This document shows, piece after piece, positions 7,933 through 56,587 of a stretch of DNA of 56,865 bases. The notes beneath the pieces are model-generated. The model had not been told where the DNA came from. It saw only the letters and a list, made by a program, of their open reading frames with translations, and made no database searches. Origin of the DNA: Candidatus Fermentibacterota bacterium (GTDB lineage Bacteria; JAFGKV01); NCBI GenBank assembly GCA_030620115.1, contig JAUXFG010000003.1, positions 1 through 56,865 of the forward strand, in the 5' to 3' direction. The translations under genes and the position numbers were made by a program. Within the stretch, counting starts at the first letter, position 1; every line of letters starts with the position of its first letter.

Positions 7933-8215
7933 CTTGCACCTCCATTCTCATTGGCACTGGCCTCTCTTTGCGGAGCCTTCTGCGAATATGGCGATATCAG
8001 ATACTGCTTATATCGAGCACCACCCGCCCATGTGCACTGGCACCCCAAAACATGGCCTTCATCGAAGTTGAAGGTTTCCTCACGAAACTCGCAAAGAGAA
8101 TGGCTGTTGCACTGGTGCAAAACGCCAATGTATACGATACTGTGCCATAGTACCCTCAAGAGGTGCGCAACTCACAGACCAGCTTAGGCCTGTCTGAGCA
8201 ACGACAGCGCTTGAA

Positions 8216-10477: not shown

Positions 10478-10838
10478 GTCAAACCTCTCCCCCGACTCAC
10501 TCGATGGAGTATCTTGCCCTATGCCCCACGCCTGCAGATCGCCAACGCCACTGGCTCTCTGAATCCGGCCCCACCAACAAAGGCCAATGATACATTGCTT
10601 TGTGAGTGCAACTTCACCGTGTTCGGGATGCTCTCTATGTGATACCTCTAACCATCATACTAAGTTGATGAGAGACAGTCAAGCGTGGATGGATTGGCCA
10701 AGTGGCAGGAGTGATTCTAGCGTAGAGACAGATCCCTCTTCGAGATTCGACTGGACCCCTCGTATGTGAGGCCCAGAGCGCATTCGGTGGCAGATCATTG
10801 TAGCAGGACTCACCCTTCACCTCTGCAAGCTCAGATAG

Positions 10839-11435
10839 TGGTGGAATTGGCAGATCGAGGCACAGATCGTGGTGATCGACGCAAATAGCACAAGATCACC
10901 CAAGCATGGCATCCTCATGGACGGGATACTGAACGACAGTCAATCGCCGCCGATCTTCTCCTGGTCAGGGCATATTGCGAAGCGCGGGATGCATGAAGGA
11001 AGAATCGAGAGAATCGACATCCACCCATCGATTCTGGATACCATATGAATACCCTCAAAAATACACTCGACAAGTGCGATTCAAAGGACGAGTTCGCTTC
11101 CCTCCTTCAATGGGGCACTCCAGCGAGATCAGGTTTTCAGCCAGATCCGTGGTGCTGCGATTCGATGCGGGAGGTGGAAGCTATGGAGAAAGCCTTCAGG
11201 GAATACAAAGCTGTGTGATCTGATATCTGATCCTGCAGAACATGCAGACATGGCCTCAATTATGTATCAGACGCCTCATGCACTCGCGACCACACTGAAG
11301 GAGTTGGAGAACGGATTGATCAATCCCACATATCCTCCCACATTCACGAAGAATTCAGTCGCGCAAGAGGAGGGGATTGAATTCCAGACCGGGTTGAGAG
11401 CGTGCCGTCAGACTTCCCGAGCTCATTCGGCTTGA
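10839..11435 (+). pseudogene. decayed sulfatase-fold gene (C-terminal half)
   Basis: One frame is open from 10839 to 11435 except for a TGA at 11046-11048. Before the stop it encodes QIVVIDANSTRSPKHGIL, PPIFSWSGHIAK and GRIERIDIHPSILDT, which match the segment of sulfatases around the DHG strand, the P-x-I-x-x-P-G turn and the L-I-D-I-x-P-T-L-L-D helix. After it come GRWKLWRKPSGNTKL and CDLISDPAEHADMA, matching the conserved sulfatase C-terminal strand and the L-Y-D-L-x-x-D-P-x-E motif. The DHG residues are degraded and no N-terminal half or start is found upstream. This is a fourth member of the local sulfatase-fold family, lying just 5' of the intact copy at 11655. Confidence 0.6.
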
Positions 11436-11654
11436 CGGGGCCTTGCCTCTTCGATAGTCTGGGCAGGCAACGCCTGTCATGATGTGTCTTTCATGAGCCG
11501 GTAAAGGATCCCCCAGAGGATGAGGACTGGTTGCATGGGAGGCGCCGTCCTCATTGGCATGTGACGCACCGTACGAGACCGTGGTCAGGGACATCATGGC
11601 CTGATACCGGGTGTCATGCCGGGATCTTGGTATCCTTGCCGAGGGAAGATGAGT

Positions 11655-13838: not shown

Positions 13839-13878
13839 TCGGGGTATTCGTCAACGCACGGTTGCACCGGAAGCTACC

Positions 13879-16041: not shown

Positions 16042-16100
16042 GAGCAGCAGATCTTGGGCGCAGGAGCCCTGTGCCGCCCGAGAATCGGGATGGAAGGCAT

Positions 16101-29597: not shown

Positions 29598-31025
29598 TCA
29601 GCCTGTAGTGGTATGAGGGGGTTCATCGCCCGATGAAGAGACAAGCTGGGCGATACCCATCGCAAGCGTCGTGTTTCCGCCTGCGTCAAGCGCACCGAGT
29701 CGTATTCTCTCCACCATGGCACAAAGCCAGTCATGTTCCCGCGAGGAGGCCGTATCCAGCCATTCCGCGTCTGCCTCCCTCATGACCTCAATGACATCCA
29801 GCAGCCGAACGGCACTGGGATCCTTCGCGGGCTGATATGCGTGATACCCCGGATCAGGGCTTACCACCGCCAACAGATTTCCCGCCACCAGCTTGCTCAT
29901 CACTTCATGCGCCACACGTTCGGGTACAGCCAATTCTCTGGCGAATTCTTCAGTGGTGGCAGGGCGCTTCCCGTTCAAGAACCGTTGTCCCGTGATGATC
30001 ATCAGGTGAAGCGCAATGAACTCCATGGCGGCCTGATTCACGCGGCGCAGCACCTTTTCCTGCCGGTATTCCCGGATATGCTGTACCGTATAGGACACCT
30101 GGGCGCCAAGGAGAAAGATCAGCCACGTGAAGTAGATACCAACGAGGACTACGGGGATGAGACCAATGCTCCCATAGATGGTGCTGTAGGTCACTACACG
30201 CCTGAAGTAGAGGGTCGAGAGCATACCATTCAAACACCAAAGCGAACCACCTACAAGACCGCCGGCAAATGCTGCACGAACTTTCACGTGTGTGTTCGGA
30301 AGGAGGAGATAGAGGAGCCCGAAGAAGAGAGAAAGGACCACGAGATTGCTCGTGGCCTTGGGGACAATCCTCAATATAGGAAGCGCGCTCAATTGATCCA
30401 AGCTCCAGGAAGCTGAGGCACTGATGCTGAACAGCATAACCAACGGCCCCAAGGTGATAGCCGTCCAGTAGTACACAAGTCGGCGGAGACGTCCCCGGCC
30501 ACGCTCCACGCCCCAGATATCGTTCACCGCATTCTCGATGGTCTCGATGAGCCGGACGCCAACAAAAAGGAGGATGAGCATACCAACGGCCCCTAATGCC
30601 CTAAAATTGATATTCTCGATGAAGTCGGTGATACCCGTGATGATCTTGTCCCGGGCCGCTCTGCTCTTGACCGGCGGTGCTTCCGGCACGGGTGGCAGGG
30701 CGGTGGCACTGTCAGAAAGTACCTCCGCCGGCACCCAATCGATCATGGGGAGGACCGCAGTGATCAATCGGTCCAGTGCCCGGGGAATTTCTTCCTCACT
30801 CGCATCTTTGAGGAAATTCTTGGATACGGCTATGGAAACCGCGAGGAGAGGAATAATGGCAAGGACCGTTGCGTAGCTTAGTGCAGCCGCCCTGGTGGTA
30901 CACCGTGTGTCTTCGAAATCCCGATAGAGTTGTGCCATGAACTCGCCAAATGTTCTAAGCACATGCCAGAGAACCTTCAATATCTTCATACTGCCAAAGA
31001 GAATTTGCCTGAGTAGCGTATTCAT
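29598..31025 (-). CDS. YihY/BrkB family membrane protein with C-terminal winged-helix-like domain
   Basis: A protein of 475 residues. Residues 30-330 carry the six-helix YihY/UPF0761 core (TRAAALSYATVLAIIPLLAV, LLFVGVRLIETIENAVNDIW, the PNTHVKVRAAFAGGLVGG loop, LIPVVLVGIYFTWLIFLLGA). Residues about 335-440 look like a winged helix (RPATTEEFARELAVPERVAH, EVMSKLVAGNLLAVVSPD). The family was once called RNase BN in error; the function is unknown, with an envelope or transport role often suggested. The start overlaps the stop of the GGDEF gene (ATGA, 31022-31025). Confidence 0.88.
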   Translation of the reverse strand: MNTLLRQILFGSMKILKVLWHVLRTFGEFMAQLYRDFEDTRCTTRAAALSYATVLAIIPLLAVSIAVSKNFLKDASEEEIPRALDRLITAVLPMIDWVPAEVLSDSATALPPVPEAPPVKSRAARDKIITGITDFIENINFRALGAVGMLILLFVGVRLIETIENAVNDIWGVERGRGRLRRLVYYWTAITLGPLVMLFSISASASWSLDQLSALPILRIVPKATSNLVVLSLFFGLLYLLLPNTHVKVRAAFAGGLVGGSLWCLNGMLSTLYFRRVVTYSTIYGSIGLIPVVLVGIYFTWLIFLLGAQVSYTVQHIREYRQEKVLRRVNQAAMEFIALHLMIITGQRFLNGKRPATTEEFARELAVPERVAHEVMSKLVAGNLLAVVSPDPGYHAYQPAKDPSAVRLLDVIEVMREADAEWLDTASSREHDWLCAMVERIRLGALDAGGNTTLAMGIAQLVSSSGDEPPHTTTG

Positions 31026-33901
31026 GAAACCACCAATGAGACGCGATTTCGCCCGGATTCTTTGGCACAGTACAACGCCCTGTCGGCGTCAGCTAATAAT
31101 TCCTGCCAGGAATTGTGCACTCTGGGGTCAAGGCCGGCCACACCAACACTCACCGTGAATGATATGGTCTCCCCGCCTGGGTCCGCAAAGGGAGTCGATT
31201 CTACGCGGTCACGAAGTTTTTCCGCCACGAGAAGGCCGTTATTCTCCCCGGCGCCATAGAGTACATACATGAACTCATCACCACCGCTTCTGCACACGAG
31301 ATCGGATCTCCGCCGCAAACGACGAAGTATTTCGGCAAAATGCTTGAGGGCGGCATCACCGACAGCATGCCCCCACGTATCATTCAGTACCTTGAACTTG
31401 TCAATATCAATTGCCAGGGCAGTCATCGGGATGCCGCTCCTTTGTGCTCGTGCCACCACACCATCTACCTCGGCGTTGAAGCCTCTACGGTTGGGAAGCC
31501 CCGTCAATTCGTCGGTGAGGGATAGCTCTCTCACCTGGTCCAGAGCCTCTTCCAACTGGGTAGTCCGCGTTCGCACCAACCCCTCCAGCTCGATCCTTTT
31601 CCGCTCGAGCTGGCGCGTCCTAAGTTTTACGACCGCGGTGACAAGGCCAAAGGTAAGTAGGGTCACACCCACAAGAAACGGCGCTCTCAACCAGTATGGG
31701 GACCCAACATGCAGTACCACTGCTGCAGCCGGTCCCCAGGCTGACAGGTTGTTCCGCGCCGCTATCTCGAAACAATGGGTCCCACGTGGGAGATAAGAGT
31801 ACCGGATGTCATCCGTACGATGGGTCGTAATCCACGTATCGTCCACTTCGCTTAGGCGGTACTGGAACATCGCCTGATCGGGCCAGAGAAGTGATTGCTC
31901 TTCATATCGGATTCTGAGCACGTGATGTCCGTGGGGCAGAAGTCTGCCAGGTTTCCATAGGTCGCCATCCAGAGAAATCTGTTCGATCCGGATCTCCGGC
32001 CCGTCGACAAAGGCCCCCAATTGCCGCGTATCGATCCTGCTCACGCACCCAAAGAATCCACACCAAAGCCCTCCATCCTCGTCTAATACGAATGCGCGTG
32101 AGGTCGTGATCTCTTCACCTGCAAGGCCGACACGGTTGTCCAACATGGGGCCAAACGCGTCGCGCTCCAAATCAAGACATTGTACTCCATTGTCAGTACC
32201 GATCCAAAGATGGTTACCGTCCAAAACGAGGCCGGTCACCATCTCGTCTCCCAATCCATCGGGTTTCTTCCACGTCCGAACACGTTTCTTTTGATCAACG
32301 AGACAAAGGCCCGCCTCGGTGCCTATCCAGAGGCCCCGCTCTTCATCCACCAGAACCGTATTGATTCCCTGCGATGGTAACTGGTCGTTGAATTCAGACT
32401 GCCAGAGCGTATCGCCGTTGCTTGTCCATAAACCGAGCCCGGATGTGCCGACATGGACACGATCCCCGTCAGCCACCAGTGCATATACAGAGGCTTCCGG
32501 CATACCGGGAATCTCCGACCATACCCCATGGGCATACCGCACCACTCCAGTGGTTGTTCCAATGAGCGCTGAGTCTTTGTCTCGCACCAAGAGGCGTACA
32601 AGATAAAGGTCGCTCAGCGATGATTCATCGTGAAGAGGCTCCAGCTTCCCCTCGGCAGTGATCCTGAACATGCCGCCGTCACCAATCACGATGATGTCGT
32701 TCCCCATCCGCCCGATATCCCAAATCTCGCCCAGTCTGACATCATCACGATTCAGGGGGATCTCATCCAGTGCTCCGGTTGTCCTCCTGTGGAGCAAAAC
32801 ACTCCGATCAGTGGTTATGAAGACGCTGTCGCGCCCTTCGAGGTGCATGGCAAGAGGAGAAATAAGATTCTCATGTTTCAGATTCTCAACACTTGTGATG
32901 GAGACCTGCAGGAGACCCTCGCCTCCTGTTCCGATCCAAATTGATCCCGCTTGGTCAATCAGGAGACTAGTCATGGTTCGCTCCGTCACACCCACTGCAT
33001 AGGAAACCCATGATCCATCGTTGGCGAAATGCCAGAGTTTTCTACGTCCGATGCCCCAGAGTTCCCCATCCGGTGCACATGCAAGGTTCGTGAGGGATTC
33101 GATGCGCGGCGGCTCTCCCGGTTCGATAACAATTGTCGTGTCCCCCTGAGTCCTCATTACCCTCCCCCCGAGGAGATAGACGACTTCATCTTGAGGGAAA
33201 GGGCATATCGCGTAAATGAAGTTATGCTCTTCCTTCGCGGGACCCACATGGATTCTCTCGCCTGTGGAGCGATTCACACGCCAGAGACCTGAAAGCCGGG
33301 TTCCTACATACAAGACGCTGTCGCCAAGACTAGACATGACCAGCAATGCTTCATCCGGTGGAAAGGCAGGCATCACAGGAAGCTCAGCCACAGAATCCTC
33401 TCTACAGACGAATAGATTGTCCCATGTGCAGACAAGAACCTCTCCAGGCGCTCCCAATGCCAGGTTTCTGATGTCCATGCCCGCCATATTGATTTCTGAT
33501 TCGAGATGGTGAAAACCCACACTGTCACGAAAGGCGAGCCCACCATCAGTACCCAGCCAAAGGCGGCCCTTCTCATCCATGACCATAGCCATGATCGTGC
33601 TGCTGGGGAGCCCGTCAGCGGGACCGTATGTCCTTATCCTGCCGGCGGAAACGAGACTCAGCCCGGAAGGAGTTCCGACCCAGAGACCCTGGGAATGATC
33701 AGCGCACATGCAGAGCACCTCACGCGAGGCGAGGCCTTGGGCGGACAAGTATCGTCTCACGGGAAGCTCCATGGCCCAAGAGCATGCAGGCATGCCGAAG
33801 AAACTCTGGAGCAGAAGCACAACCAGAATCAGTCCTTTTTGTGCGGCTCGATAGATGATTTCGCGTTGCTCACTCAAGAATCGTGCTCCGCATTTGCTCA
33901 T
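31022..33901 (-). CDS. two-component-propeller sensor diguanylate cyclase (Reg_prop, Y_Y_Y, GGDEF)
   Basis: The frame is open to a TTG at 33943 (973 residues); ATG 33901 gives 959. A signal peptide (GLILVVLLLQSFFGMPA) is followed by about 650 residues of beta-propeller repeats with the G-x-L-W-I-G-T motif (QGLWVGTPSGLSLV, GRLWLGTDGGLAF, GSIWIGTGGEGLLQV, HLWIGTDNGVQCL), a Y_Y_Y domain (FQYRLSEVDDTWITT), a membrane helix (LVGVTLLTFGLVTAVVK) and a GGDEF domain. That domain has DELTGLPNRRGF, RSGGDEF and an inhibitory-site R-x-x-D (RRSD) five residues upstream. It should make cyclic-di-GMP in response to a periplasmic signal, with product inhibition. It is coupled to YihY and divergent from the Wzz gene. 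Confidence 0.93.
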   Translation of the reverse strand: MSKCGARFLSEQREIIYRAAQKGLILVVLLLQSFFGMPACSWAMELPVRRYLSAQGLASREVLCMCADHSQGLWVGTPSGLSLVSAGRIRTYGPADGLPSSTIMAMVMDEKGRLWLGTDGGLAFRDSVGFHHLESEINMAGMDIRNLALGAPGEVLVCTWDNLFVCREDSVAELPVMPAFPPDEALLVMSSLGDSVLYVGTRLSGLWRVNRSTGERIHVGPAKEEHNFIYAICPFPQDEVVYLLGGRVMRTQGDTTIVIEPGEPPRIESLTNLACAPDGELWGIGRRKLWHFANDGSWVSYAVGVTERTMTSLLIDQAGSIWIGTGGEGLLQVSITSVENLKHENLISPLAMHLEGRDSVFITTDRSVLLHRRTTGALDEIPLNRDDVRLGEIWDIGRMGNDIIVIGDGGMFRITAEGKLEPLHDESSLSDLYLVRLLVRDKDSALIGTTTGVVRYAHGVWSEIPGMPEASVYALVADGDRVHVGTSGLGLWTSNGDTLWQSEFNDQLPSQGINTVLVDEERGLWIGTEAGLCLVDQKKRVRTWKKPDGLGDEMVTGLVLDGNHLWIGTDNGVQCLDLERDAFGPMLDNRVGLAGEEITTSRAFVLDEDGGLWCGFFGCVSRIDTRQLGAFVDGPEIRIEQISLDGDLWKPGRLLPHGHHVLRIRYEEQSLLWPDQAMFQYRLSEVDDTWITTHRTDDIRYSYLPRGTHCFEIAARNNLSAWGPAAAVVLHVGSPYWLRAPFLVGVTLLTFGLVTAVVKLRTRQLERKRIELEGLVRTRTTQLEEALDQVRELSLTDELTGLPNRRGFNAEVDGVVARAQRSGIPMTALAIDIDKFKVLNDTWGHAVGDAALKHFAEILRRLRRRSDLVCRSGGDEFMYVLYGAGENNGLLVAEKLRDRVESTPFADPGGETISFTVSVGVAGLDPRVHNSWQELLADADRALYCAKESGRNRVSLVVS

Positions 33902-33973
33902 ATCCGTGATCTGAGCAAAAGGTGGATGGATGGGGTCGGGCAAAAAAACAGCCTATATTCGGGAAAGCTGTCC

Positions 33974-34193
33974 AGCAAAGCTGCGCCTCAAACCGACGAG
34001 TGATGATGCCGTAGCGCATTGATTGAGGCGCAGCGATACTGGTCACTGGATACTGGATGGAACCCGGAGTCGTTGCGTTCTTCTTCCAGCATCCAGCATC
34101 CAGACACCAGCATCGCCTCGCAGCCAACCCACATATGTCGTTGCAAAACTTGACCCGTTTGTGAAGTTTCCAACCAATTGAAAACGACTAGTG
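33974..34193 (+). repeat. dispersed repeat family 1, copy B (about 220 bp)
   Basis: The most complete copy of family 1, about 85-90 percent identical by eye to 668-873 and slightly longer because of an extra CCAGCATCCAGCATCCAGACA block. The inner inverted pair GCTGCGCCTCAA / TTGATTGAGGCGCAGC is kept. It fills the divergent intergenic region between the GGDEF and Wzz genes, so promoters for both operons must lie in or beside it. Confidence 0.88.
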
Positions 34194-34304
34194 TCGCTCG
34201 ATTGCTCTCGATTCCTATTGACGTTTAGACTCCGGCATCTCACTTTCAGCCATTCGATTTGCCCGTGTTCGTGTCGAGTTATCCGACCAAGGAGGTCCAA
34301 GCCC

Positions 34305-35855
34305 TTGTTGAATCGTCGTTCCGCCACCTATGCCACTCTCCTTCTTGCACACAAGTGGTGGATCATTGCATCCACGCTGCTTGCCGGTCTGGCCGCGGCG
34401 CTCATGAGCCTGACGCTGGAGGATCAATTCCAAGCGAGGGCCAGATTGCTGGTTCTTGAACCGACCGTGGAAAGCAAGGCCGGTGGATACACAAATGTCA
34501 ACAACACCGTCTATACGGTGGATACATACTCATCCATGCTCGCCAATCAAGAACTTCTTGCCGGCGCCGTGAGAGATCTCGGTCTTGACTTCCCCCCTGA
34601 TCGTCTGTCCGGGAGTCGACTCCTGGGCCGCCTCTCCATCGTCCCAGTGAAGGACACAAAGTTGATAGAGCTCAGTGTTGTCTACTCGAACGCGGCAAAG
34701 ACAAGAATAATTGTCAACAAGATCGCAAATAGATTCGTCGATCTCTATCAGAATATCAGAACAAACGAGATCAATAGCTCTCAGCGATTCATACAGGAAC
34801 AACTCGATATGGCACGTTTTGCCTATGATATCGCACAGGATTCATTGAGAATCGCGCGCTCAGCCGGACGAGTGGACGAGCTTCATCTACGTCTTCAGAA
34901 TATCATGGAGCAGATCAAGCTCTTCCAGATCGACCTTGAGGCCTCGCGAGGAGATCTGTCTCGGATGAACGCACGGCTGGCGGAGGTAGACCAACTGCTT
35001 GGCGACCTACCGGAGGAGACCATGGCTTCCAGGAGAGAGTTCACCACGATTCTCCACGGTCAGCCAGCGGGCGCCTCGGCAGCGGAGGATGTTTCCACCC
35101 TCCTTCACGACATCGATCTCTCCGCGCTTTCGAGACAGACGGCCAACGAAGAGCAGAAGGCACAGATCCAACGGGCTATACAGCAGCTTAACGACCTACG
35201 CGCCGCAGCTCGGGATTTGGAAAATCCGCCCGGAAGGCGTCGTCTTACACCCCAGGAATGGGCTGATCGACTGGGCATTCTTGCCTCCGGACTGAGAGAC
35301 CTTGAACGGTCCATGGCGGAGATGACCGCATCGTTTGGACGGCAGGCGAGTTCGCTCTCACCCCTGACGTTGAGGGTCGGTGCTCTCGCTTCTTCCATCT
35401 CGGGTCAAGTTGCCCAGCAGACCACTGAGCAACAGATGCAGGCCAACCCCCTCCGCACCACGCTCCTCCGCGAGCAGGCGGAAGATCGGATGAGGCGACA
35501 AGGGCTTGCCGCAAAGATTGAGCATCTGGAGCATGTCCTCACAGGTCTCCGTAAAGAGCTCGTTTCGGTAGAGCAAGGGCTTTACCGCGGAATGAGAAAC
35601 GTCGAATCCATGGAGCAGGAAAGCAAATCACTCGCCGACTTAAAGTCATTTCTTACCGAGAAATATGATCAATCCAGGATCGAAGTCGCCGCGAAACTCG
35701 GAACCATGATACTGGTGGATCCCGCACTCATCCCCGAGCGTAAAATCGGCCCCCAGAGAAAACTCAATGTCCTGCTCGGCTTGCTCGTGGGCTTCTCTGT
35801 CGGGTCTCTCTTCGTGGTCGGCAAGGAGCTCTTCCAAGCAACCGAATCCGCCTGA
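34305..35855 (+). CDS. Wzz/chain-length-determinant family protein
   Basis: The frame is open from a GTG at 34191, but AAGGAGGT ends 8 nt before a TTG at 34305, giving 517 residues. It starts LLNRRSATYATLLLAHKWWI, with the first membrane helix at about residues 15-35. A large periplasmic part with long coiled-coil segments follows (about 150-460: SSQRFIQEQLDMARFAYDIA, KIEHLEHVLTGLRKEL). It ends in the typical P-rich approach and second helix (NVLLGLLVGFSVGSLFVV). There is no C-terminal tyrosine-kinase domain. Wzz proteins set polysaccharide chain length together with Wzy, which is encoded next on the same strand. The long coiled-coil region makes it larger than E. coli Wzz. Confidence 0.88.
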   Translation: MLNRRSATYATLLLAHKWWIIASTLLAGLAAALMSLTLEDQFQARARLLVLEPTVESKAGGYTNVNNTVYTVDTYSSMLANQELLAGAVRDLGLDFPPDRLSGSRLLGRLSIVPVKDTKLIELSVVYSNAAKTRIIVNKIANRFVDLYQNIRTNEINSSQRFIQEQLDMARFAYDIAQDSLRIARSAGRVDELHLRLQNIMEQIKLFQIDLEASRGDLSRMNARLAEVDQLLGDLPEETMASRREFTTILHGQPAGASAAEDVSTLLHDIDLSALSRQTANEEQKAQIQRAIQQLNDLRAAARDLENPPGRRRLTPQEWADRLGILASGLRDLERSMAEMTASFGRQASSLSPLTLRVGALASSISGQVAQQTTEQQMQANPLRTTLLREQAEDRMRRQGLAAKIEHLEHVLTGLRKELVSVEQGLYRGMRNVESMEQESKSLADLKSFLTEKYDQSRIEVAAKLGTMILVDPALIPERKIGPQRKLNVLLGLLVGFSVGSLFVVGKELFQATESA

Positions 35856-35860
35856 CTTTA

Positions 35861-36048
35861 GGGTTCGCATCAGGAATAACTTCACATCTTGACATCCCAT
35901 CTTCATCGCATCTATTGGCCTCGCCTCCATCGCGAAATCCTCGATCCGCCAGCTAGCGGACCTCCGGCGGGCATCCGCCAGCTGGCGGACCAAACCCCTA
36001 CATGGGGAGACCAATTCTGCGGCAAATCTGTGCGTCAAGACTCCGAAC
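35861..36048 (+). repeat. dispersed repeat family 2, copy 3, with palindromic core
   Basis: The constant left end (AGGGTTCGCATCAGGAATAA, CTTGACATCCCATCTTCATC) and right end (CCCTACATGGGGAG, ATTCTGCGGCAAATCTGTGC) enclose two copies of a 16-bp palindrome: TCCGCCAGCTAGCGGA at 35945-35960 and TCCGCCAGCTGGCGGA at 35974-35989. The two are direct repeats of each other and can also pair. The element occupies the gap between the Wzz and Wzy genes. Confidence 0.85.
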
Positions 36049-36064
36049 CCTTACCATCCAATTG

Positions 36065-36106
36065 CCAACGTCGAACATCGAAGTGGGGCTCTTCCTTCGA
36101 CGTTGG
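36065..36106. repeat. 11-bp inverted repeat next to ATGTTGG/ATGTTCG words
   Basis: CCAACGTCGAA (36065-36075) and TTCGACGTTGG (36096-36106) are exact complements. Right after the second arm come ATGTTGGATGTTCGGCG, the same words that form the 14-bp tandem at 28720. It lies just before the Wzy start, in a region without a visible Shine-Dalgarno. Confidence 0.8.
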
Positions 36107-36186
36107 ATGTTGGATGTTCGGCGTTTCTCCATCCCAGCGAAGGCTCTCCTCCTCCCCAATTCCTCAATCGCCCAATCTCCTATCTC

Positions 36187-37617
36187 ATGAATGAGACCAC
36201 CTCTGTCATAGAAAGAGCGCCCCAGAATCCGCCTCTGGCCCATCCTCGCCCGGTTGGGCTTGTAATGGGTATCCTGGCCTCGGTAATTGCCGGGTTGCTG
36301 GTAACCAGGGTGGGCCCTCGAGCACTGCTCCTGATCCCCGTGCTCCTGATCGGTTGGCGAGTGATTCACAATCCCATATGGGCTCTGTCTTTGTATCTCG
36401 TGAGCGTGCCACTCTCCACCGCATCCGAAGCGCTTGTCGGCATCAGCATCACAAAGCTCGTCTTCGTGGTGCTTGTTCTCTCCTGGCTACTTGGCGCAAA
36501 GGGTCGCTTGCGGGCAAGAGAGACGGACATCCCGTTGTGGGGAGCCCTTTTTGTGGTGGTCTGTTTTGCGGCAAGCATCGTGAGCAAAGCGACGCTCCCT
36601 GGTCTTGCAAACACCGCACGCCTGGGTGGCTATGTGCTTCTTGTGATCATTTCGGCGGACCTTCTTCCTCGGCCTGGCGCACTCAAGAAGAGTCTCTACG
36701 CCATCTTGGTCCCTTCCCTTCCCTTTGTGATTCTGGGAATCTATCAGTTTGTCACTCATGGAACCATACTGGGCCTCGGACTCCACAGAGAGACAGGGGA
36801 TTTCGTGGTATGGAAGGGATTTGTCCAGGCCAGTGGTGTATTCGACCATCCCAATGTGTTTGCCACCTACCTGCTCGTGTATCTTTGTCTTGCCACGGGT
36901 TTAGGACTTCAGGCCGAGCGCTTGCGGGATCGCCTATTCTTTTTCGGCCTGGCGAGTCTGTCCTTCGGGGGCCTCCTTGTCACTTTTAGCCGCTCAGGTT
37001 GGGTCGGGCTCATGGCCTCGGCCGGTGCGTTTGTCCTGATCTATCCGCGATTCCTCAAGGCGGCTTTGGTATTGCTGCTGATTTTGGTTCTGCTCGTTCT
37101 CGTGCTCCCCGAAAAACAGGCAGAAGGTCTGACCAAACGAACCAGGCCTGAGATGGATGACTCCATGAGAGCCAGGGTTGGCGCTTACAAGTCGGCATGG
37201 AGGATGTTTGTCGACCACCCGCTTCTTGGTGTGGGGCTCGGGAGTTTCAATCGTCGATTCCTGGAGTACAAGGCGCCAGATGCCCGATTCCCCAAGAACT
37301 ATATCAGGGGCAGCGCCAAGGGCATGGAAGCCCATAGTACCTACTTGCAGCTCCTTGCCGAAACAGGCATACTGGGGCTTGCGGCATTCTTTGCGCTCAA
37401 CTTCAGTGTGGCATTTCAGCTAGTTCGGCTTCTCCGGCGCCACAGGGATGGTTTTGCCCGGGGCCTCGCCATAGGACTGGCAGCAGCGTTTGTGGGCCTT
37501 GTGGTCCAGAATGCCTTCAATAGTCAGGAGTACATCAAGGCTTTCTGGGTCGTCATCGCCCTCATCGCCGGGCTCAGCCAATGGGAGCCTCAACATGTCT
37601 CGGAATCTGGAATCTGA
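36187..37617 (+). CDS. O-antigen polymerase/ligase family membrane protein (Wzy/WaaL-like)
   Basis: From ATG 36187 the protein has 476 residues with about 12 hydrophobic segments. The large periplasmic loop holds the Wzy_C signature: FVDHPLLGVGLGSFNRRF, then AHSTYLQLLAETGILGLAAF. A second conserved stretch is VFDHPNVFATYLLVYL. Members polymerise or ligate O-antigen or exopolysaccharide units at the outer face of the inner membrane; next to Wzz a polymerase role is the better guess. A longer frame (from 36103) starts in repeat DNA and is unlikely. No good ribosome binding site precedes 36187. Confidence 0.88.
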   Translation: MNETTSVIERAPQNPPLAHPRPVGLVMGILASVIAGLLVTRVGPRALLLIPVLLIGWRVIHNPIWALSLYLVSVPLSTASEALVGISITKLVFVVLVLSWLLGAKGRLRARETDIPLWGALFVVVCFAASIVSKATLPGLANTARLGGYVLLVIISADLLPRPGALKKSLYAILVPSLPFVILGIYQFVTHGTILGLGLHRETGDFVVWKGFVQASGVFDHPNVFATYLLVYLCLATGLGLQAERLRDRLFFFGLASLSFGGLLVTFSRSGWVGLMASAGAFVLIYPRFLKAALVLLLILVLLVLVLPEKQAEGLTKRTRPEMDDSMRARVGAYKSAWRMFVDHPLLGVGLGSFNRRFLEYKAPDARFPKNYIRGSAKGMEAHSTYLQLLAETGILGLAAFFALNFSVAFQLVRLLRRHRDGFARGLAIGLAAAFVGLVVQNAFNSQEYIKAFWVVIALIAGLSQWEPQHVSESGI

Positions 37618-47994: not shown

Positions 47995-48173
47995 AGGGTT
48001 CGCGCAGAAATACCTTCACATCTTGACATCCCATCCTTACCCCAATCTAGAACGCGGATCTCTCGCCAATCTTCTACTTTCCCTCTTTGGAATGCGGTAG
48101 CCCCGCGTACTGCGCGGGGCTACCGCTTTTCCCGAGCAAGCCATGCTTGTGTAGTCCCGCGTACTGCGCGGGA
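47995..48173 (+). repeat. dispersed repeat family 2, copy 4, with strong hairpins
   Basis: It starts AGGGTTCGCGCAGAAATACC, then ATCTTGACATCCCATCC and AGAACGCGGATCTCTCGCCA (as in copy 2). It ends in two stem-loops: 48094-48107 with 48113-48126 (14 bp, GCGGTAGCCCCGCG arms, loop TACTG, followed by TTTT) and 48155-48161 with 48167-48173 (7 bp, TCCCGCG arms, same loop TACTG). The first could act as an intrinsic terminator on the plus strand. Confidence 0.8.
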
Positions 48174-48864: not shown

Positions 48865-50217
48865 ATGGCAAAGGGAATGCTCTTGTTGACAGTCGCCATA
48901 TTGGTACTCTGTCTTTCTGCACAGTCATCTCTCGCTGATCCCGGTGAGGAAGATAAACGCTTCTGGATAGGGGGAGAGCTCACCACCAAAGGATTCTCGC
49001 TGGAGAACTACAAAGGATCGGGAGTCACTGATCAATTCGTGCTGAGCCGTGCCATGATCTCCGCCGGGGCTAAGGCCACTGATCGTGTTTCGGTCGGGCT
49101 GCTCGTTGCAAAAACGCGGCTTTGGGGTAAGAGCGCCACTCTTTTTCAGCAGGGAGAACCAGGTGCGTCGGAGTTCTTAACAGGAGGCCATGGCTTTCTG
49201 GACAACTTCGGAGTATACAATGCCTACCTGGAGGTCAACGATGCAGTCTGGGGGTTAGACCTCACATTAGGAAGGCAGTTTGCCGGTGAGTGCGAAGATG
49301 CCTTCTTCTTCTACGGACCTCAGTATGGCCGCTTCTTAGGGATCACGTCCTTGGATGCGGCGAGGGCCGACTGGACCTGGGGGGCGGTAGGAATGACGGC
49401 TTTGGCCGGAAAAAAGGCAGAGACCGGTGCTGGAGACGGATCGGGTTGCGATCCGGAGTACCCGGACTCTGTTGTCTACATCGAAGACCAGGATGTGAAC
49501 ATATACGGACTCATGGCAAAGAGCACTACGCTTGTCGCAGGACAGACCTTTGATCTGGATCTCTACAGCCGCCGCAGAGGTCTCTCCGAGTCCGGCAAAA
49601 CTGATAATCTGGTGCTCTTGGTCCTCAGATCCAGAGGTGAGATTCCCGTGTTCAGCGGGTTGGAATATGACGCAATACTGGCACTGAATGGAGGGAAAAA
49701 CGAGGAGGCGGACCAGACCTACAACGGCTGGTTGGGCCGAGGAATAGGCTACTACAATGCTGATGTGCCATCCATTGGCGGTATGAGGCTTGAGGCAGGT
49801 TATGTCTATGTGAGTGGTGACAAATCCTCGACATCGGACAAGGATGAGCACTTCGCGAGGATGAGCAGAGACTGTTTCTACAGTATGGCGGTAATCGTCT
49901 ATGAGATACTTAACGACAGTGCCCCCGAAGCCGTGAGCAACGTGACCATCCCTTGGGTGGGGCTGGAAATCGTTCCCGATGTCTTTGGCGGGAAGTGGAG
50001 CCTCAGGGCAATCGGCTGTGACCTGGATACTGCGGAGCCTATCGCCGGTCTTGACGGCAAAGGAAAGGAGATCGACATCGGTCTTAAGTACGCTCCGAGT
50101 GACGACCTCTTCTTGAGCATAATGTGCGCTCAGTTCACGCCCCGGGGGATTCTGGAAGCGAATTGGGGCTCAGACCCCATTAAGCAGGTTAGCGGAGAAT
50201 TGACGGTGAAGTTCTGA
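48865..50217 (+). CDS. outer-membrane porin-like beta-barrel
   Basis: A protein of 450 residues. GGAGGAGGAGAAGAA precedes the ATG. A signal peptide (MAKGMLLLTVAILVLCLSAQ ... LADP) is followed by alternating amphipathic strands (KATDRVSVGLLVAKTRLWG, VWGLDLTLGRQFAG, GMRLEAGYVYVSGDKSS, WSLRAIGCDLDTAEP). The C-terminus is ELTVKF, a terminal Phe being the BAM recognition signal for barrels. It resembles alginate-export/porin families in layout. It is 85 bp upstream of a periplasmic binding protein gene, so it may admit that protein's ligand. Confidence 0.78.
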   Translation: MAKGMLLLTVAILVLCLSAQSSLADPGEEDKRFWIGGELTTKGFSLENYKGSGVTDQFVLSRAMISAGAKATDRVSVGLLVAKTRLWGKSATLFQQGEPGASEFLTGGHGFLDNFGVYNAYLEVNDAVWGLDLTLGRQFAGECEDAFFFYGPQYGRFLGITSLDAARADWTWGAVGMTALAGKKAETGAGDGSGCDPEYPDSVVYIEDQDVNIYGLMAKSTTLVAGQTFDLDLYSRRRGLSESGKTDNLVLLVLRSRGEIPVFSGLEYDAILALNGGKNEEADQTYNGWLGRGIGYYNADVPSIGGMRLEAGYVYVSGDKSSTSDKDEHFARMSRDCFYSMAVIVYEILNDSAPEAVSNVTIPWVGLEIVPDVFGGKWSLRAIGCDLDTAEPIAGLDGKGKEIDIGLKYAPSDDLFLSIMCAQFTPRGILEANWGSDPIKQVSGELTVKF

Positions 50218-50302
50218 GAGGGGAGAGCTTGGGGGCGTGTATTGCCTGAGCCCTCTCAGAAGCTCGCTGACAGCAGACCAGAAACGGAAATGAAGGGGGA
50301 CG

Positions 50303-51337
50303 ATGATGCGTATGCCGCGCAGCGCTATGTGGGGTGTTATTTCCGCCACAATGAGTTTCCTCGTTCCTTTGAATTGTATAGCCGCGATCGCCTTTTCTCA
50401 GCCTCCCTCCAAAGTCTACAAGGTGGGAGTGCTTATGCTTCCTGCCCCTTACGCGATAGAGATGGAGATGGGATTCAAGAACGGGCTGGAGACATATGGC
50501 TATATCGATGGCCGGAACCTCGAGTATATCAAAAGAGTGGTTGGTCCGGAACAAAGCGACTATGGGAAAAATCAAGAGGTTGCCAGAGAATTGATTAGTG
50601 AGGGAGTGGATCTGATAGCCACCATCGGAACCGGCGCCAGTACCCCAGTTTGGCAGGTAGTCAAGAATACGGATATGCCTATGGTGTTTGCAGGAGTCAC
50701 CTATCCCATCGAGGGGGGACTAATAGAAGCGTTTGACAAACCTACAGGCGTCAATATCACCGGCATAAGCTACGGCGTCCCGCCGGAGACCAGGTTGAAG
50801 CTTTTCAGGAAGATGTTTCCCGATGAGGAAAGATTCAGAAGGCTTGGATTTATCTATTCAGGGGTAATGGAGCAAGAAATCCATTATGTGGAGGATTTGA
50901 CCAGCCTCGGCGAGAATCACGGCTTCCAGCTGAAATACATTGACTTTTTTGATCCATCCATTGGGGCGCCTGATTTCTCTATCCTTGAGGCGAATGTGGA
51001 TAGCCTGGACCTCATTTTCGGATGGTATACTCTGGACAGGATTTGTGCCGATTCCACGCTTTTTGGGAGGTTGACCTCCTTCCCGTTGCCCATACTAGGC
51101 ATCACGAGCCAGTTCACCGACAGAGGGGCCATCGGGGGAGTGTTGACCGATCATTTCGGCTTGGGGGCTCAACACGCGAAGATGGTGGCAAAAATCTTGG
51201 CAGGAGAGTTCCCCGGGGAAATACCTCCTCGACAGCCCACCACATATCTGATAGAAATCAACCTAAGAAGAGCGCGAGAGCTCAAGATAGAGATACCGTT
51301 GGAAGTAATCGGGGCCGCCAGCCGGATTGTGCACTAG
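50303..51337 (+). CDS. periplasmic substrate-binding protein, ABC_sub_bind (PF04392) type
   Basis: A protein of 344 residues. AAGGGGGACG precedes a double ATG. The signal is AMWGVISATMSFLVPLNCIA, with mature start near SQPPSKVYKVGVLML. The two-lobed PF04392 pattern follows: FKNGLETYGYIDGRNLEYIK, ARELISEGVDLIATIGTGAS, MPMVFAGVTYPIEGG, NITGISYGVPPETRLKLFRK and LEANVDSLDLIFGW, ending LKIEIPLEVIGAASRIV. Family members bind small ligands, some of them tryptophan or other aromatic or amino-acid-like compounds. No ABC permease or ATPase follows; instead a sensor kinase starts 67 bp downstream, so it more likely presents a ligand to the kinase than feeds a transporter. Confidence 0.88.
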   Translation: MMRMPRSAMWGVISATMSFLVPLNCIAAIAFSQPPSKVYKVGVLMLPAPYAIEMEMGFKNGLETYGYIDGRNLEYIKRVVGPEQSDYGKNQEVARELISEGVDLIATIGTGASTPVWQVVKNTDMPMVFAGVTYPIEGGLIEAFDKPTGVNITGISYGVPPETRLKLFRKMFPDEERFRRLGFIYSGVMEQEIHYVEDLTSLGENHGFQLKYIDFFDPSIGAPDFSILEANVDSLDLIFGWYTLDRICADSTLFGRLTSFPLPILGITSQFTDRGAIGGVLTDHFGLGAQHAKMVAKILAGEFPGEIPPRQPTTYLIEINLRRARELKIEIPLEVIGAASRIVH

Positions 51338-51404
51338 CCTCGCATGTGCAAGCACGCGCAGCTCGTGGTGAAATATCCGGGATAGCTGCTGGAGGGCAGG
51401 AGAA

Positions 51405-53297
51405 GTGCCGAAGCCTGCGACGTTCCTATCGACATTTCCCGGAGCAATCAGAGGGAAGCTCTTCGGGAGCATACGAACCAAACTAGCCCTGGTGACCATA
51501 GTCATTTTTACAGTCCCCATGACGGTGGGGATTCTCCGTTCACTGAAACTGCTCGGGAATTTTGCCGAGGAACAGGCCTATGAAAAGGTTCGTAGCGATC
51601 TGATTACCTTGAATACGGTCTATGAGAACAGGAAAGGACAGTTGGGTTCCTTTGTTCGGTCGATCTCCGCCGACAATGCCGTCAGGATAACGGCGAGCCT
51701 GGGAAGAGGCTCTCTTCTGGGGGAACAGCTTGCAAGGCATCTGTCCAATTCCCTCAAAGGGGGCATGGTTGATATCCTTACTGTTGTTGATCACCAGGGA
51801 AGAGTCTTGGCTCGGGGGACCAACCCCGAATCAAGAGATGACGATCTGTCGGGAAACGAGCTGGTTGTAAGGGGGCTGGCTGGTGAGGAAGTGGTCGCAA
51901 TTCTGCTGGTCTGTGCGGAGGAAGTAGAGAAAGAAGGATTGACAGAGAGGACTCTTCATGGGTCTGAAGGTCGCGGCGCGGAAGTCATGATTCAGGCAGT
52001 CTGTCCTATCCTTGATGAGGGAGAGGTTGTTGGGGTAAGCCTCGCAGGCTTTCTGGTTGCCAAGAACAGACTGTTGGCAGAGCAGTTGAGCGCCCAGGCG
52101 CACATCAAGTTTGCGATTCTGGCAGAGGATAGAATCACTCTGACGAATATCACTGACAGAGAGAACAATACAATACTCGGAGAGAACGTGGAGATCTCTA
52201 TAGATGAGAATAGAAGCGATCAAATGGGACAATATTGTTCTGGCTGGACATCGATCAGAGGCGAGGAGTACATCTGCTTCTTCTCGCCACTCCGAGATGC
52301 CGGCGGTGGGGATGTTGGTCGGCTGGTAGCCGTGAAGGATGTCCATGCAATTGCCGCTATCAAGGAGAAGACCGCCACCGAGATGGTCTTGATCTTTGCC
52401 GCGGGGTTAGGATTGGCCATAGCCTTGGGTGTGTTTCTTCTCGGATATGCCATGACCACGTCTCTCCGGAAACTCGCGAGAAGGGCAGAGCAGATCGCTG
52501 ACGGCGACCTCTCCACTCCTTTGGAGATCAAGTCCAGCGATGAGATTGGCGTCCTGGCCGACTCGTTCGACCGCATGACCAAGCAACTGAAGAAGTCTCG
52601 GGATGAGATCGAGGAGTACAGCAGGACTTTGGAGCAAAAGGTGGGTGACAGAACAAAAGAATTGAAGCAGTCAGAGGAGCAACTTAAAGCATCACTGAAG
52701 GAAAAGGAGGTTCTTCTCAAAGAAGTTCACCACAGAGTAAAGAACAATCTCCAGGTCATCTCCAGTCTGCTCTACCTTCATTCTAAAGACACCACGGACG
52801 ACAACATTATTCAAATGTTCAGGGAAAGCCAAAACCGTGTGAAATCGATAGCGTTCATCCACGAGACATTGTATCAATCTGAAGACTTGGCGAGAATAGA
52901 CTTCGCAGAGTATGTTCGGAAGTTGACGAGGTCTTTGTACCATTCATATGTAGTCAATGCGGATACAATCACACTCGAGTTGGCGATTGATGAGGTTTCA
53001 CTGGGCATAGATACGGCGATCCCGCTTGGATTGATTATCAACGAGCTTGTCTCGAATAGCATAGAACACGCTTTCCCGAATTCGAGGAGAGGCGGAATCC
53101 ATATCAAGCTCTACTCAGGCGGCGAGAACGAAGTCGTCCTTTTTGTTGGTGATGATGGTATCGGGTTGCCCGAGGATTTCGACTTCCGGAATACGGAATC
53201 ACTGGGTTTGCGTTTGGTGAATAGCTTGGTAGATCAGCTTGGCGGTACTATTGATCTTGATAGGAATAATGGAACTGAGTTCACGATTGTGCACTAG
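51405..53297 (+). CDS. membrane sensor histidine kinase, HisKA_2 family
   Basis: A protein of 630 residues from GTG 51405 (GGAGGG 8 nt upstream). Membrane helix 1 is at about 26-45 (LALVTIVIFTVPMTVGIL). A large periplasmic Cache-like region (about 50-320) follows, with VDILTVVDHQGRVLARGTNP and CPILDEGEVVGVSLAGFLVA. Helix 2 is at about 326-350, then HAMP (LRKLARRAEQIADGDLSTPL) and a coiled coil. The HisKA_2 site EVHHRVKNNLQVISSLLYLH has H443 as the likely phospho-acceptor. The HATPase domain has IINELVSNSIEHAFP (N box) and VGDDGIGLPEDF (G1). The end GTEFTIV-H* is slightly short, and its stop starts a repeat (TAGCCCGGATTTCTTACC). It follows a binding-protein gene and precedes a hybrid kinase. 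Confidence 0.9.
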   Translation: MPKPATFLSTFPGAIRGKLFGSIRTKLALVTIVIFTVPMTVGILRSLKLLGNFAEEQAYEKVRSDLITLNTVYENRKGQLGSFVRSISADNAVRITASLGRGSLLGEQLARHLSNSLKGGMVDILTVVDHQGRVLARGTNPESRDDDLSGNELVVRGLAGEEVVAILLVCAEEVEKEGLTERTLHGSEGRGAEVMIQAVCPILDEGEVVGVSLAGFLVAKNRLLAEQLSAQAHIKFAILAEDRITLTNITDRENNTILGENVEISIDENRSDQMGQYCSGWTSIRGEEYICFFSPLRDAGGGDVGRLVAVKDVHAIAAIKEKTATEMVLIFAAGLGLAIALGVFLLGYAMTTSLRKLARRAEQIADGDLSTPLEIKSSDEIGVLADSFDRMTKQLKKSRDEIEEYSRTLEQKVGDRTKELKQSEEQLKASLKEKEVLLKEVHHRVKNNLQVISSLLYLHSKDTTDDNIIQMFRESQNRVKSIAFIHETLYQSEDLARIDFAEYVRKLTRSLYHSYVVNADTITLELAIDEVSLGIDTAIPLGLIINELVSNSIEHAFPNSRRGGIHIKLYSGGENEVVLFVGDDGIGLPEDFDFRNTESLGLRLVNSLVDQLGGTIDLDRNNGTEFTIVH

Positions 53298-53382
53298 CCC
53301 GGATTTCTTACCAACTTCCGGCGGAGTGACCGAAGAATCTGGGTGGGATATGGGGAGAATTTCGAATTGCGGGAATGCGGGA
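53295..53382 (+). repeat. repeat cluster between the two kinases (family 5 end + family 4 copy 2)
   Basis: TAGCCCGGATTTCTTACCAA (53295-53314) matches the ends of the element at 43565-43760. From 53323 the sequence CGGAGTGACCGAAGAATCTG, GGGAGAATTTCGAATTGCGG and GAATGCGGGAATGG matches 25612-25668 in reverse. The first TAG is the stop codon of the sensor kinase gene. Confidence 0.75.
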
Positions 53383-53545
53383 ATGGCGGTATGTTCGATC
53401 GGAAGGGTTAGGATCTGGCGGTTTCTTTTCTGCGAGAAGCCATTATTCAATCATTTCCTTCCGCGGAATCGAAGCGTGAGTCGGCACGGAAGACGTTGCA
53501 TGCCAAGGAGTTGTAGGAATTCTGATACGCAATAGAGGGGTTAGA

Positions 53546-56500
53546 ATGTCGGACAAGGCACATATACTAGTGGTCGAAGACGAGACTATCGTGGCAATGG
53601 AGATAAAGGATAGGCTGGAGGGCTTTGGATATGCTGTCTGCGGTATGGCAAGTTCAGGAGAGGCTGCTGTCGAGATGGCCTTGGCGATGCGCCCTGATCT
53701 TGTATTCATGGATATCAGACTGAAGGGCAAAATGGATGGCGTGCAAGCCGCCCAGCAAATTCGTGCGCGCTTTGATATCCCGGTAGTATACCTGACCGCC
53801 TATGCTGATGAAGACACCTTGCGGCGAGCCAAAATAGCCGAGCCCTTTGGCTACATCATCAAACCGTTCCAAGAGAGGGATCTCCGCAGTGCCATCGAGA
53901 TAGCTCTCTATCGACATGGAATGGAAAGAAGACTGAAAGAGAGTGAGCGATGGCTTGCGGCTGTGCTTAGAAGCATAGGCGATGCGGTGATCACCGCAGA
54001 TGCCAAGGGGAGGATCACGTTCGTGAACCGCGTTGCCGAGGCATTGACGGGTTGGAAGCAGAAAGATGCCTTGGGCAAAGATCTGATGGAAGTATTCCAT
54101 ATCGTGAACGAAGATGCGAGCATGCCTGCGGAGAATCTCGTTGCCAAGGCACTCCGGGAAGGGGTTGTTGCCGGCCTGGCGAATCACTCCGTACTCATTG
54201 CCAAGGACGGAAGGGAAACACCAATCGATGACAGCGCAGCTCCCATCAGAGATGAGAATGGGGATATAACTGGTGTCGTGCTTGTCTTCCGGGATATCAC
54301 CGAGCGAAAGCAGGCAGAGGAAACGCTCCGGGACTCGGAAGAACGGCATCGCCGTTTGATCGAATCCAGTGAGGACATGATTTTCAGCGTGGATCGCGCC
54401 GGTATTTTCAGGACCGCAGGGGGCGTCCGCCTGCGCGAATTCGGTCTCAGACCAGAGGACGTCATCGGCCATTCGCTCATCGACCTCTTTGGCGAGGAAG
54501 CCGAGCAATACGAGGAACGACACCGCGAGGTCTTCGAGAGCGGCGTGTCGATCCCTTATGAACATACCTTCGAGTTCCACGGTTTGACCAAGACCGACCT
54601 CACCACTGTGTACCCAATCAAAAACGAGCGCGGCGAGATGGAACTGGTGGGGATCATCTGTCGCGATATTACCGAAGCCAAGAAGGCGCAGGAAGAGATC
54701 AAACGCCTCAAGGAGTTCAACGAGGGTATCGTCCAGAACATGGCGGAAGGCATTGTGGTGACGAACGCGGAAGGGTACCATACCTTTATAAATCATGTGG
54801 TGGCAAGCATGCTGGGCTACTCGCCTGAAGAGCTGGTGGGCAAGCACTGGACCACAATCGTCCCACCCGACAGCCAACTGATAGTCCGGGCTGCTGACGA
54901 ACGACGCAAGCATGGCCAAAGCGACCGATATGAGCTGGAGCTGGTGCGCAGGGATGGCACACGGCTGCCTGTCCTTGCCAGTGCGTCCCCCTGCTTTGAG
55001 AACGGTGAATTCGCGGAGTCCTTGGCCGTGTTCACCAATATCACCGAGCTCAAGCGCACTGAACGGGCACTCAGAGAATCGGATCAACGATTTCGCCAGG
55101 TGACAGAGAATGCGGAGGAATGGATCTGGGAGGTGGATGCGGACGGGCTCTACACCTATGGAAGCCCTGTGGTGGAGAAAATCTTAGGGTACCAGACCGA
55201 AGAAATCGTTGGCAAAAAGCGCTTTTACGATTTATTCCATCCCGAAGACAAAGAAGAACTACAGAGAGCAGCATTCGAGGCTTTCTCAAGAAGGGAGTCC
55301 TTTCGAGAGTTCATCAATCGGAATATGCACAAGAATGGCAGGGCCGTGTGGTTATCGACAAGCGCCTCTCCCATCCTCGATGAGAAGGCGAACCTGCTCG
55401 GATACAGAGGTGCTGACTCGGATATCACTGAGCGCAAGCGGCTCGAACAGCACCTACGGCAGGCGGCGAAGATGGAGGCGATCGGGCATCTTGCTGGAGG
55501 CATCGCACACGATTTCAACAATCTCCTGACAGGGATCCTGGGTTACGCCAACATGCTCAGGCTTGAATCAGATAAGGATAGCTCGACCCATGAGGCTGCA
55601 GAGACAATAGAGAAATCGGCAAGACGGATGGCAGAGCTCACTACCCAGCTGCTTGGCTTTTCTCGAAAGGGGAAGTACCAGATTGTCCCAGTCGACCTGC
55701 ACGAGACGATCCGGGAAGTGGTTAGAATGCTCGGCAGAACCGTTGATAAGAATATCCAACTCACGCTTGGATTTCGTGCCGAGAGCGCGACTACCATGGG
55801 CGATCCGGCACAGATGGAGCAGGTTTTCCTGAACTTGGCCATAAACGCGCGAGACGCGATGCCCGACGGCGGAACCATGACCTTCTCAACCGAAATCGTC
55901 GAGCTTGATGATGCATACTCCTTGGCCCATCCCGGTTCGGCGCGGGACCAAAGGCTGCTGGTAGCGGTGACTGATACGGGGAGCGGCATCCCAAAGCACG
56001 ACATCGGCCATGTTTTCGAGCCGTTCTTCACCACAAAGGAAAAGGGCAGAGGGACAGGGATGGGGCTTGCCATGGTGTACGGCATCGTGAAGAATCACGG
56101 TGGCAATATCCAGGTGTATAGCGAAGTCGGGCATGGCACGGCATTCAAGGTTTACCTCCCCCTTGCGGATGCGGAGGGAATCCTGTTGGCTGGCGAAAAA
56201 CAAGACCGAATATGCCGCGGAGTGGGGAATATCCTTGTAGTGGATGATGAAGAGATCGTTCGCAACGTCGCTTCCGAAATACTGTTCAAGCTTGGCTATG
56301 AAGTCGTGACGGCTTCAAGCGGGCAAGATGCATTGAACTACTACCGAAAACACGGCGACTTAGTTGATCTCGTCATCATTGACTTGATTATGCCGGGAAT
56401 GGGGGGACAGGAGTGCTTTCGGGAGCTCAAACGCATTGATCCCCATGTCCGAGCCGTCTTGTCCACAGGATACGGGATGGATCGCAGAGTACGAGACGTC

Positions 56501-56587
56501 GTCAATGAGGGGATGATAGGCTTCGTACCAAAGCCGTATCAAATGATTGAGTTAGGAAAGAAATTGCGCGAGTTTCTGGCGAATTGA
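53546..56587 (+). CDS. hybrid histidine kinase with receiver domains at both ends and four PAS domains
   Basis: A protein of 1013 residues; GAGGGG is 5 nt before the ATG. The N-terminal receiver (1-125) has VVEDETIVAMEI, D56 in LVFMDIRLKG, and IIKPF. Four PAS domains follow (about 138-255, 265-385, 390-510, 515-640), each ending in a D-I-T-E-R-K or similar linker. The HisKA domain has GGIAHDFNNLLTGILGYAN with H655, then HATPase (NLAINARDAMPDGG, VTDTGSGIPKHDI, GMGLAMVYGIVKNHGG). A C-terminal receiver has D946 in LVIIDLIMPGMGG. It has no membrane segment, so it is cytoplasmic. The N-terminal receiver could take phosphate from the HisKA_2 kinase encoded upstream; this is an inference from gene order. 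Confidence 0.95.
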   Translation: MSDKAHILVVEDETIVAMEIKDRLEGFGYAVCGMASSGEAAVEMALAMRPDLVFMDIRLKGKMDGVQAAQQIRARFDIPVVYLTAYADEDTLRRAKIAEPFGYIIKPFQERDLRSAIEIALYRHGMERRLKESERWLAAVLRSIGDAVITADAKGRITFVNRVAEALTGWKQKDALGKDLMEVFHIVNEDASMPAENLVAKALREGVVAGLANHSVLIAKDGRETPIDDSAAPIRDENGDITGVVLVFRDITERKQAEETLRDSEERHRRLIESSEDMIFSVDRAGIFRTAGGVRLREFGLRPEDVIGHSLIDLFGEEAEQYEERHREVFESGVSIPYEHTFEFHGLTKTDLTTVYPIKNERGEMELVGIICRDITEAKKAQEEIKRLKEFNEGIVQNMAEGIVVTNAEGYHTFINHVVASMLGYSPEELVGKHWTTIVPPDSQLIVRAADERRKHGQSDRYELELVRRDGTRLPVLASASPCFENGEFAESLAVFTNITELKRTERALRESDQRFRQVTENAEEWIWEVDADGLYTYGSPVVEKILGYQTEEIVGKKRFYDLFHPEDKEELQRAAFEAFSRRESFREFINRNMHKNGRAVWLSTSASPILDEKANLLGYRGADSDITERKRLEQHLRQAAKMEAIGHLAGGIAHDFNNLLTGILGYANMLRLESDKDSSTHEAAETIEKSARRMAELTTQLLGFSRKGKYQIVPVDLHETIREVVRMLGRTVDKNIQLTLGFRAESATTMGDPAQMEQVFLNLAINARDAMPDGGTMTFSTEIVELDDAYSLAHPGSARDQRLLVAVTDTGSGIPKHDIGHVFEPFFTTKEKGRGTGMGLAMVYGIVKNHGGNIQVYSEVGHGTAFKVYLPLADAEGILLAGEKQDRICRGVGNILVVDDEEIVRNVASEILFKLGYEVVTASSGQDALNYYRKHGDLVDLVIIDLIMPGMGGQECFRELKRIDPHVRAVLSTGYGMDRRVRDVVNEGMIGFVPKPYQMIELGKKLREFLAN

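Follow-up and report, generated by a model that had tools for sequence, protein, structure and literature searches.

The window, meaning the whole stretch of DNA that was analysed (56,865 nucleotides), is an entire contig of a draft genome that is 98% complete, and close to its end lies a cassette of four open reading frames, all on the forward strand and separated by intergenic gaps of 85, 67 and 248 bp. This layout had been described in a first-pass annotation and was verified at the coordinates below, and Pfam agreed with the domains proposed there (ABC_sub_bind, a membrane HisKA_2 kinase with a Cache domain, namely dCache_3, and a hybrid kinase with a receiver at each end).

48865..50217, + strand: predicted outer-membrane β-barrel protein ("porin"), 450 aa, with a signal peptide and a C-terminal ...ELTVKF
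50303..51337, + strand: orphan periplasmic binding protein ABC_sub_bind (PF04392), 344 aa, with a Sec-type signal peptide (Pfam)
51325..51339, + strand: 15-bp repeat GATTGTGCACTAGCC, spanning the binding-protein stop codon
51405..53297, + strand: membrane sensor kinase TM-dCache_3-TM-HAMP-HisKA_2-HATPase_c, 630 aa, GTG start (Pfam, TM windows)
52722..52949, + strand: HisKA_2 dimerisation/phosphoacceptor domain of the membrane kinase (PF07568), KEVHHRVKNNLQ
53285..53299, + strand: second copy of the 15-bp repeat GATTGTGCACTAGCC, spanning the membrane-kinase stop codon
53546..56587, + strand: soluble hybrid kinase REC(D56)-PASx4-HisKA(H655)-HATPase_c-REC(D946), 1013 aa (Pfam; residues read off the sequence)
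53546..53962, + strand: N-terminal receiver of the hybrid kinase, of a type recurring near HisKA_2 kinases

The exact 15-bp repeat has only two copies in the whole genome, both in the cassette, so that the binding protein and the membrane kinase both end in IVH*. A second, REP-like repeat of 22 bp (GTAGCCCCGCGTACTGCGCGGG) is palindromic and occurs twice in the non-coding stretch upstream of the cassette (window 48091-48172). Promoter and terminator scans of the cassette gave results at chance level, and a scan for viral sequence returned nothing. Elsewhere, the window holds three sulfatase-family genes (6019-16239), a gene for a GGDEF protein that also carries two-component propeller repeats (31022-33943) and, at 34191-37617, polysaccharide genes of the Wzz/Wzy type. 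The contig ends 278 bp past the hybrid kinase gene, and the absence of an output regulator can therefore not be inferred; such a regulator may sit off the contig, on the next one. A homologous four-gene order was found nowhere else among the sampled genomes, two of which belong to the source family while the remaining ones share only its domain in the taxonomic sense.

The product of the first gene is plausibly an outer-membrane β-barrel, since it has a signal peptide and its C-terminus (...GELTVKF) finishes in phenylalanine. The same hydrophobic pattern and final Phe are present in three of its four remote homologues, which were all that 372 genomes yielded and at least two of which are not located at any binding-protein/kinase cassette. 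No sequence match was obtained in Pfam, NCBIfam or the PDB, a simple statistic for amphipathic strands could not tell the protein from shuffled sequences, and its single-sequence structure model (pLDDT 29) was too poor for a fold search.

The binding protein and its gene neighbours

The second gene encodes a protein of the ABC_sub_bind family (PF04392, E 3e-31, residues 52-340), with 3lkv and 3lft as the closest solved structures. The TrpX transporter clade was recovered with support of 100/99 in a phylogeny of 62 proteins, and the window protein branched outside it, grouping weakly (85/85) with the protein of L068 and the kinase-linked proteins of L021 and L077, on a long branch whose placement is weakly supported. 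Its score against the NCBIfam TrpX model (NF041285) was 103.5 bits and those of kinase-linked proteins ranged between 104 and 116, as against a cut-off of 390 bits that is missed also by two permease-linked proteins (270-307 bits). A scan of genome contigs with close PF04392 relatives returned two Lindowbacteria loci only, which coincide with L021 and L068. The source genome has a second ABC_sub_bind gene (L028), which adjoins a TonB-type receptor gene and a gene for a protein of TonB-like layout and is accompanied by neither kinase nor permease.

The survey of PF04392 neighbourhoods drew on as many as 386 genomes for the protein query and 290 for the Pfam model, and neighbouring genes were classed with models built for this analysis. 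In the resulting 123 PF04392 frames, which include fragments and in which related genomes recur, the same-strand gene directly after the binding protein encodes a histidine kinase in 24 cases, a chemoreceptor in eight and a c-di-GMP enzyme in three. These 35 signalling neighbours compare with 17 of 123 frames beside a TrpY-type ABC permease, 15 of 123 with a TonB-type receptor as sole partner and one of 123 fused to a permease. Homologues of the binding protein do not, then, always stand beside permeases and never beside kinases, a pattern that would have told against the sensory role first proposed. Pfam confirmed kinase neighbours at L021, L024, L060, L066, L067, L077, L081, L082, L083, L087 and L089, chemoreceptor neighbours at L069, L070, L091 and L092, and an HD-GYP-type protein at L096. 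An outer-membrane TonB receptor is often encoded upstream, giving the order receptor, binding protein, kinase in L024, L066, L081, L083, L263, L264 and L267; at L082, the protein preceding the binding protein belongs to the Phenol_MetA_deg family. In the two other genomes of the source family that were examined, the binding-protein/kinase pair of the window was absent from both.

Three further arrangements were observed among these loci. PF04392 genes lie directly before chemoreceptor genes at L069, L070, L074, L091, L092, L097, L252 and L274, and these pairs suggest binding-protein-assisted chemotaxis. The fused frame (L099, 3626-6547) spans 974 aa and joins a PF04392 binding protein to its ABC permease. 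Tandem arrays of PF04392 paralogues, with no permease, occur at L064, L090 and L241, in genomes G140 and G087.

Across the surveyed loci, PF04392 genes thus recur with exchangeable signalling partners. We tentatively consider, short of favouring it, that much of PF04392 could be a dedicated signalling family, as opposed to a transporter family, in which an exported antenna is combined with interchangeable outputs (kinases, hybrid kinases, chemoreceptors and c-di-GMP enzymes) and often with an outer-membrane receptor, the window cassette joining this antenna to a relay from a HisKA_2 kinase to a REC-PAS hybrid. Our literature search found no description of PF04392 or ABC_sub_bind in signalling; an earlier mention is possible, as a relevant review lay outside its coverage.

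The membrane kinase and what its periplasmic domain may sense

The third gene encodes the only HisKA_2 kinase of the source genome, in which two transmembrane stretches (near residues 19-50 and 323-354) flank a dCache_3 domain (9e-10, residues 72-314), followed by HAMP, a HisKA_2 domain with its phosphoacceptor His (PF07568, E 1e-30 to 5e-30) and HATPase_c (PF02518, 7e-12). Other PF04392-linked kinases are mostly of the HisKA type, with sCache_4, CHASE8, dCache_1 or unassigned periplasmic regions, and not dCache_3/HisKA_2. A Cache domain common to the window kinase and the kinase-linked loci was considered and rejected, the apparent matches falling mostly at the HAMP/TM end. The single-sequence model of the periplasmic region (pLDDT 43.5) was too poor for a fold search or for an interface. 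Relatives of the window dCache_3 mostly have no neighbouring PF04392 gene, and the best match is a chemoreceptor in L123. Since the window domain differs from those of other PF04392-linked kinases and its own relatives mostly occur without PF04392, the same two roles have in this genome either been brought together independently or come to lie side by side by chance. Window-like dCache_3 kinases at L127, L131 and L132 adjoin genes that resemble, by sequence, hydrogenase/NADH-dehydrogenase-type subunits.

That most dCache_3 relatives, the L123 chemoreceptor included, have no PF04392 neighbour would suit a reading in which the two kinases do form a relay and dCache_3 binds its own ligand directly, with a binding protein and porin that serve scavenging or uptake from the same locus and never touch the kinase. 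The cases of AgtS and AruS in Pseudomonas point the same way, as there is no evidence that the solute-binding proteins encoded near these kinases activate them (PMC11113362), and adjacency alone can thus mislead. Against this, transducers of three kinds (kinases, chemoreceptors and c-di-GMP enzymes) are repeatedly encoded next to PF04392 proteins, and a scavenging protein would lack its partner, the genome search having turned up no matching permease. We regard such direct sensing as unlikely, while giving it more weight than the other alternatives.

There is little to recommend the view that an ABC importer with genes at another place in the genome uses the binding protein, whose position beside the kinase would then reflect regulatory co-localisation only. 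The family does include TrpX-type transporter proteins, and 17 surveyed homologues lie beside a permease. However, the window protein retains only 24 of 48 positions that are near-invariant in the transporter clade, and a TrpY-type permease query of the 98%-complete source genome found no match, in a run that had no positive control but with a query that strongly matches homologues in other loci. The earlier description of the binding protein as having no permease or ATPase holds beside the gene, where neither adjoins, whether of the TrpYZ type or another, and the genome search agrees as far as the TrpY-type permease is concerned.

The hybrid kinase and its likely phosphodonor

The fourth gene (53546-56587) encodes a protein with a receiver at each end, the first spanning residues 7-118 and having D56 as its aspartate, with four PAS domains, HisKA and HATPase_c between them and no transmembrane stretch. 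The source genome contains one receiver of this N-terminal type at E<=1e-18, and it lies beside the sole HisKA_2 kinase. Among 20 loci selected for the closest receivers of this type, nine contain a HisKA_2 kinase, compared with none of 75 control loci, which had been fetched for other reasons, are in many cases kinase-rich and are not matched receivers (Fisher p 1e-6, computed with 8/20 rather than 9/20). The kinase gene is often directly upstream of the receiver gene (L176, L177, L178, L181 and L186) and is beside it in L190. At L177, a membrane CHASE8-HAMP-PAS-HisKA_2 kinase directly precedes a REC-PAS-PAS-HisKA-HATPase-REC hybrid, and at L181, in the sister genome G001 (same family, other genus), a HisKA_2 kinase is accompanied by a REC-GAF-PAS-HisKA-HATPase-REC hybrid. 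The proposed transfer from the HisKA_2 kinase to D56 thereby gains independent support from recurring HisKA_2/REC-PAS-hybrid neighbourhoods, one of them in the same family, and it is this recurrence of the gene pair that makes phosphotransfer into D56 probable. That the porin, binding protein and kinase instead form one unit and the hybrid gene another, with no transfer to D56, is improbable: the 248 bp gap between the kinase genes would allow it, a single-domain receiver encoded at another site might be the kinase's partner, and a short receiver is used in many kinase-linked loci, but the genome's only HisKA_2 kinase and only receiver of this type adjoin, and the pairing recurs, including in G001 (L181).

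A candidate sensory relay and known systems

Our results lean, by a modest measure, towards the cassette being a sensory relay in which a binding-protein-assisted membrane kinase, perhaps fed through a channel, passes its signal to the hybrid kinase. The putative channel encoded by the first gene might admit a solute across the outer membrane, a step proposed by analogy, and the exported ABC_sub_bind protein would capture this small solute in the periplasm. The loaded protein would then modulate the dCache_3 domain of the adjoining membrane kinase rather than feed an ABC importer. The HisKA_2 kinase would autophosphorylate and donate the phosphate to D56 in the N-terminal receiver of the hybrid, as the recurring gene pair suggests, and the hybrid would integrate PAS inputs and relay them via H655 and D946 to an output perhaps encoded on the next contig. 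In the envelope-to-cytoplasm chain first put forward, the kinase neighbours of PF04392 and the HisKA_2/receiver pairing thus support two of the three proposed links, those of binding protein to transducer and of kinase to receiver, while porin-fed entry remains an analogy.

An annotation as a transporter component comes easily to PF04392 proteins, yet the survey suggests that signalling-linked members are at least as common as permease-linked ones. If this is true, the label "ABC transporter substrate-binding protein" misleads in many cases, and the window cassette, with its one binding protein, one HisKA_2 kinase and one matching receiver, is a small system with little competition between partners in which to test the idea.

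LuxP-LuxQ and TorT-TorS are pairs of a binding protein and a sensor kinase. As in these systems, the window has the gene of an exported binding protein next to that of a membrane kinase with a periplasmic sensory region. In contrast to them, the binding protein here belongs to PF04392, the kinase is of the HisKA_2 type and non-hybrid, the relay would run into a separate REC-PAS hybrid, and contact between binding protein and kinase is putative. Structural papers on both pairs are cited in PMC11113362. More generally, solute-binding proteins that activate receptors once loaded are considered widespread and the mechanism well established, although only about ten cases involving sensor kinases had been characterised by 2022 (PMC9602780). 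One of the known cases is BctC, a tricarboxylate binding protein that activates the kinase BctE (PMC9602780); the likeness lies in the combination of a solute-binding protein and a sensor kinase, for which stimulation has been shown in BctC-BctE. BctC also serves its own transporter, whereas no transporter partner was found for the window protein.

TrpX, of the TrpXYZ importer (NF041285; solved relatives 3lkv and 3lft), shares the Pfam family PF04392 with the window protein, which differs in having neither permease nor ATPase, in its score (104 against the cut-off of 390 bits) and in its position outside the transporter clade. The closest counterparts of the second half of the cassette are the pairs of a HisKA_2 kinase and a REC-PAS-HisKA hybrid at L176, L177 and L181, which show the same gene order and a similar hybrid, the layout of L177 being nearly identical; unlike the window cassette, these sampled pairs contain no binding-protein gene. 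The parts of the cassette and both of its pairings are of known kinds, and their combination in four genes was seen nowhere else among the sampled genomes.
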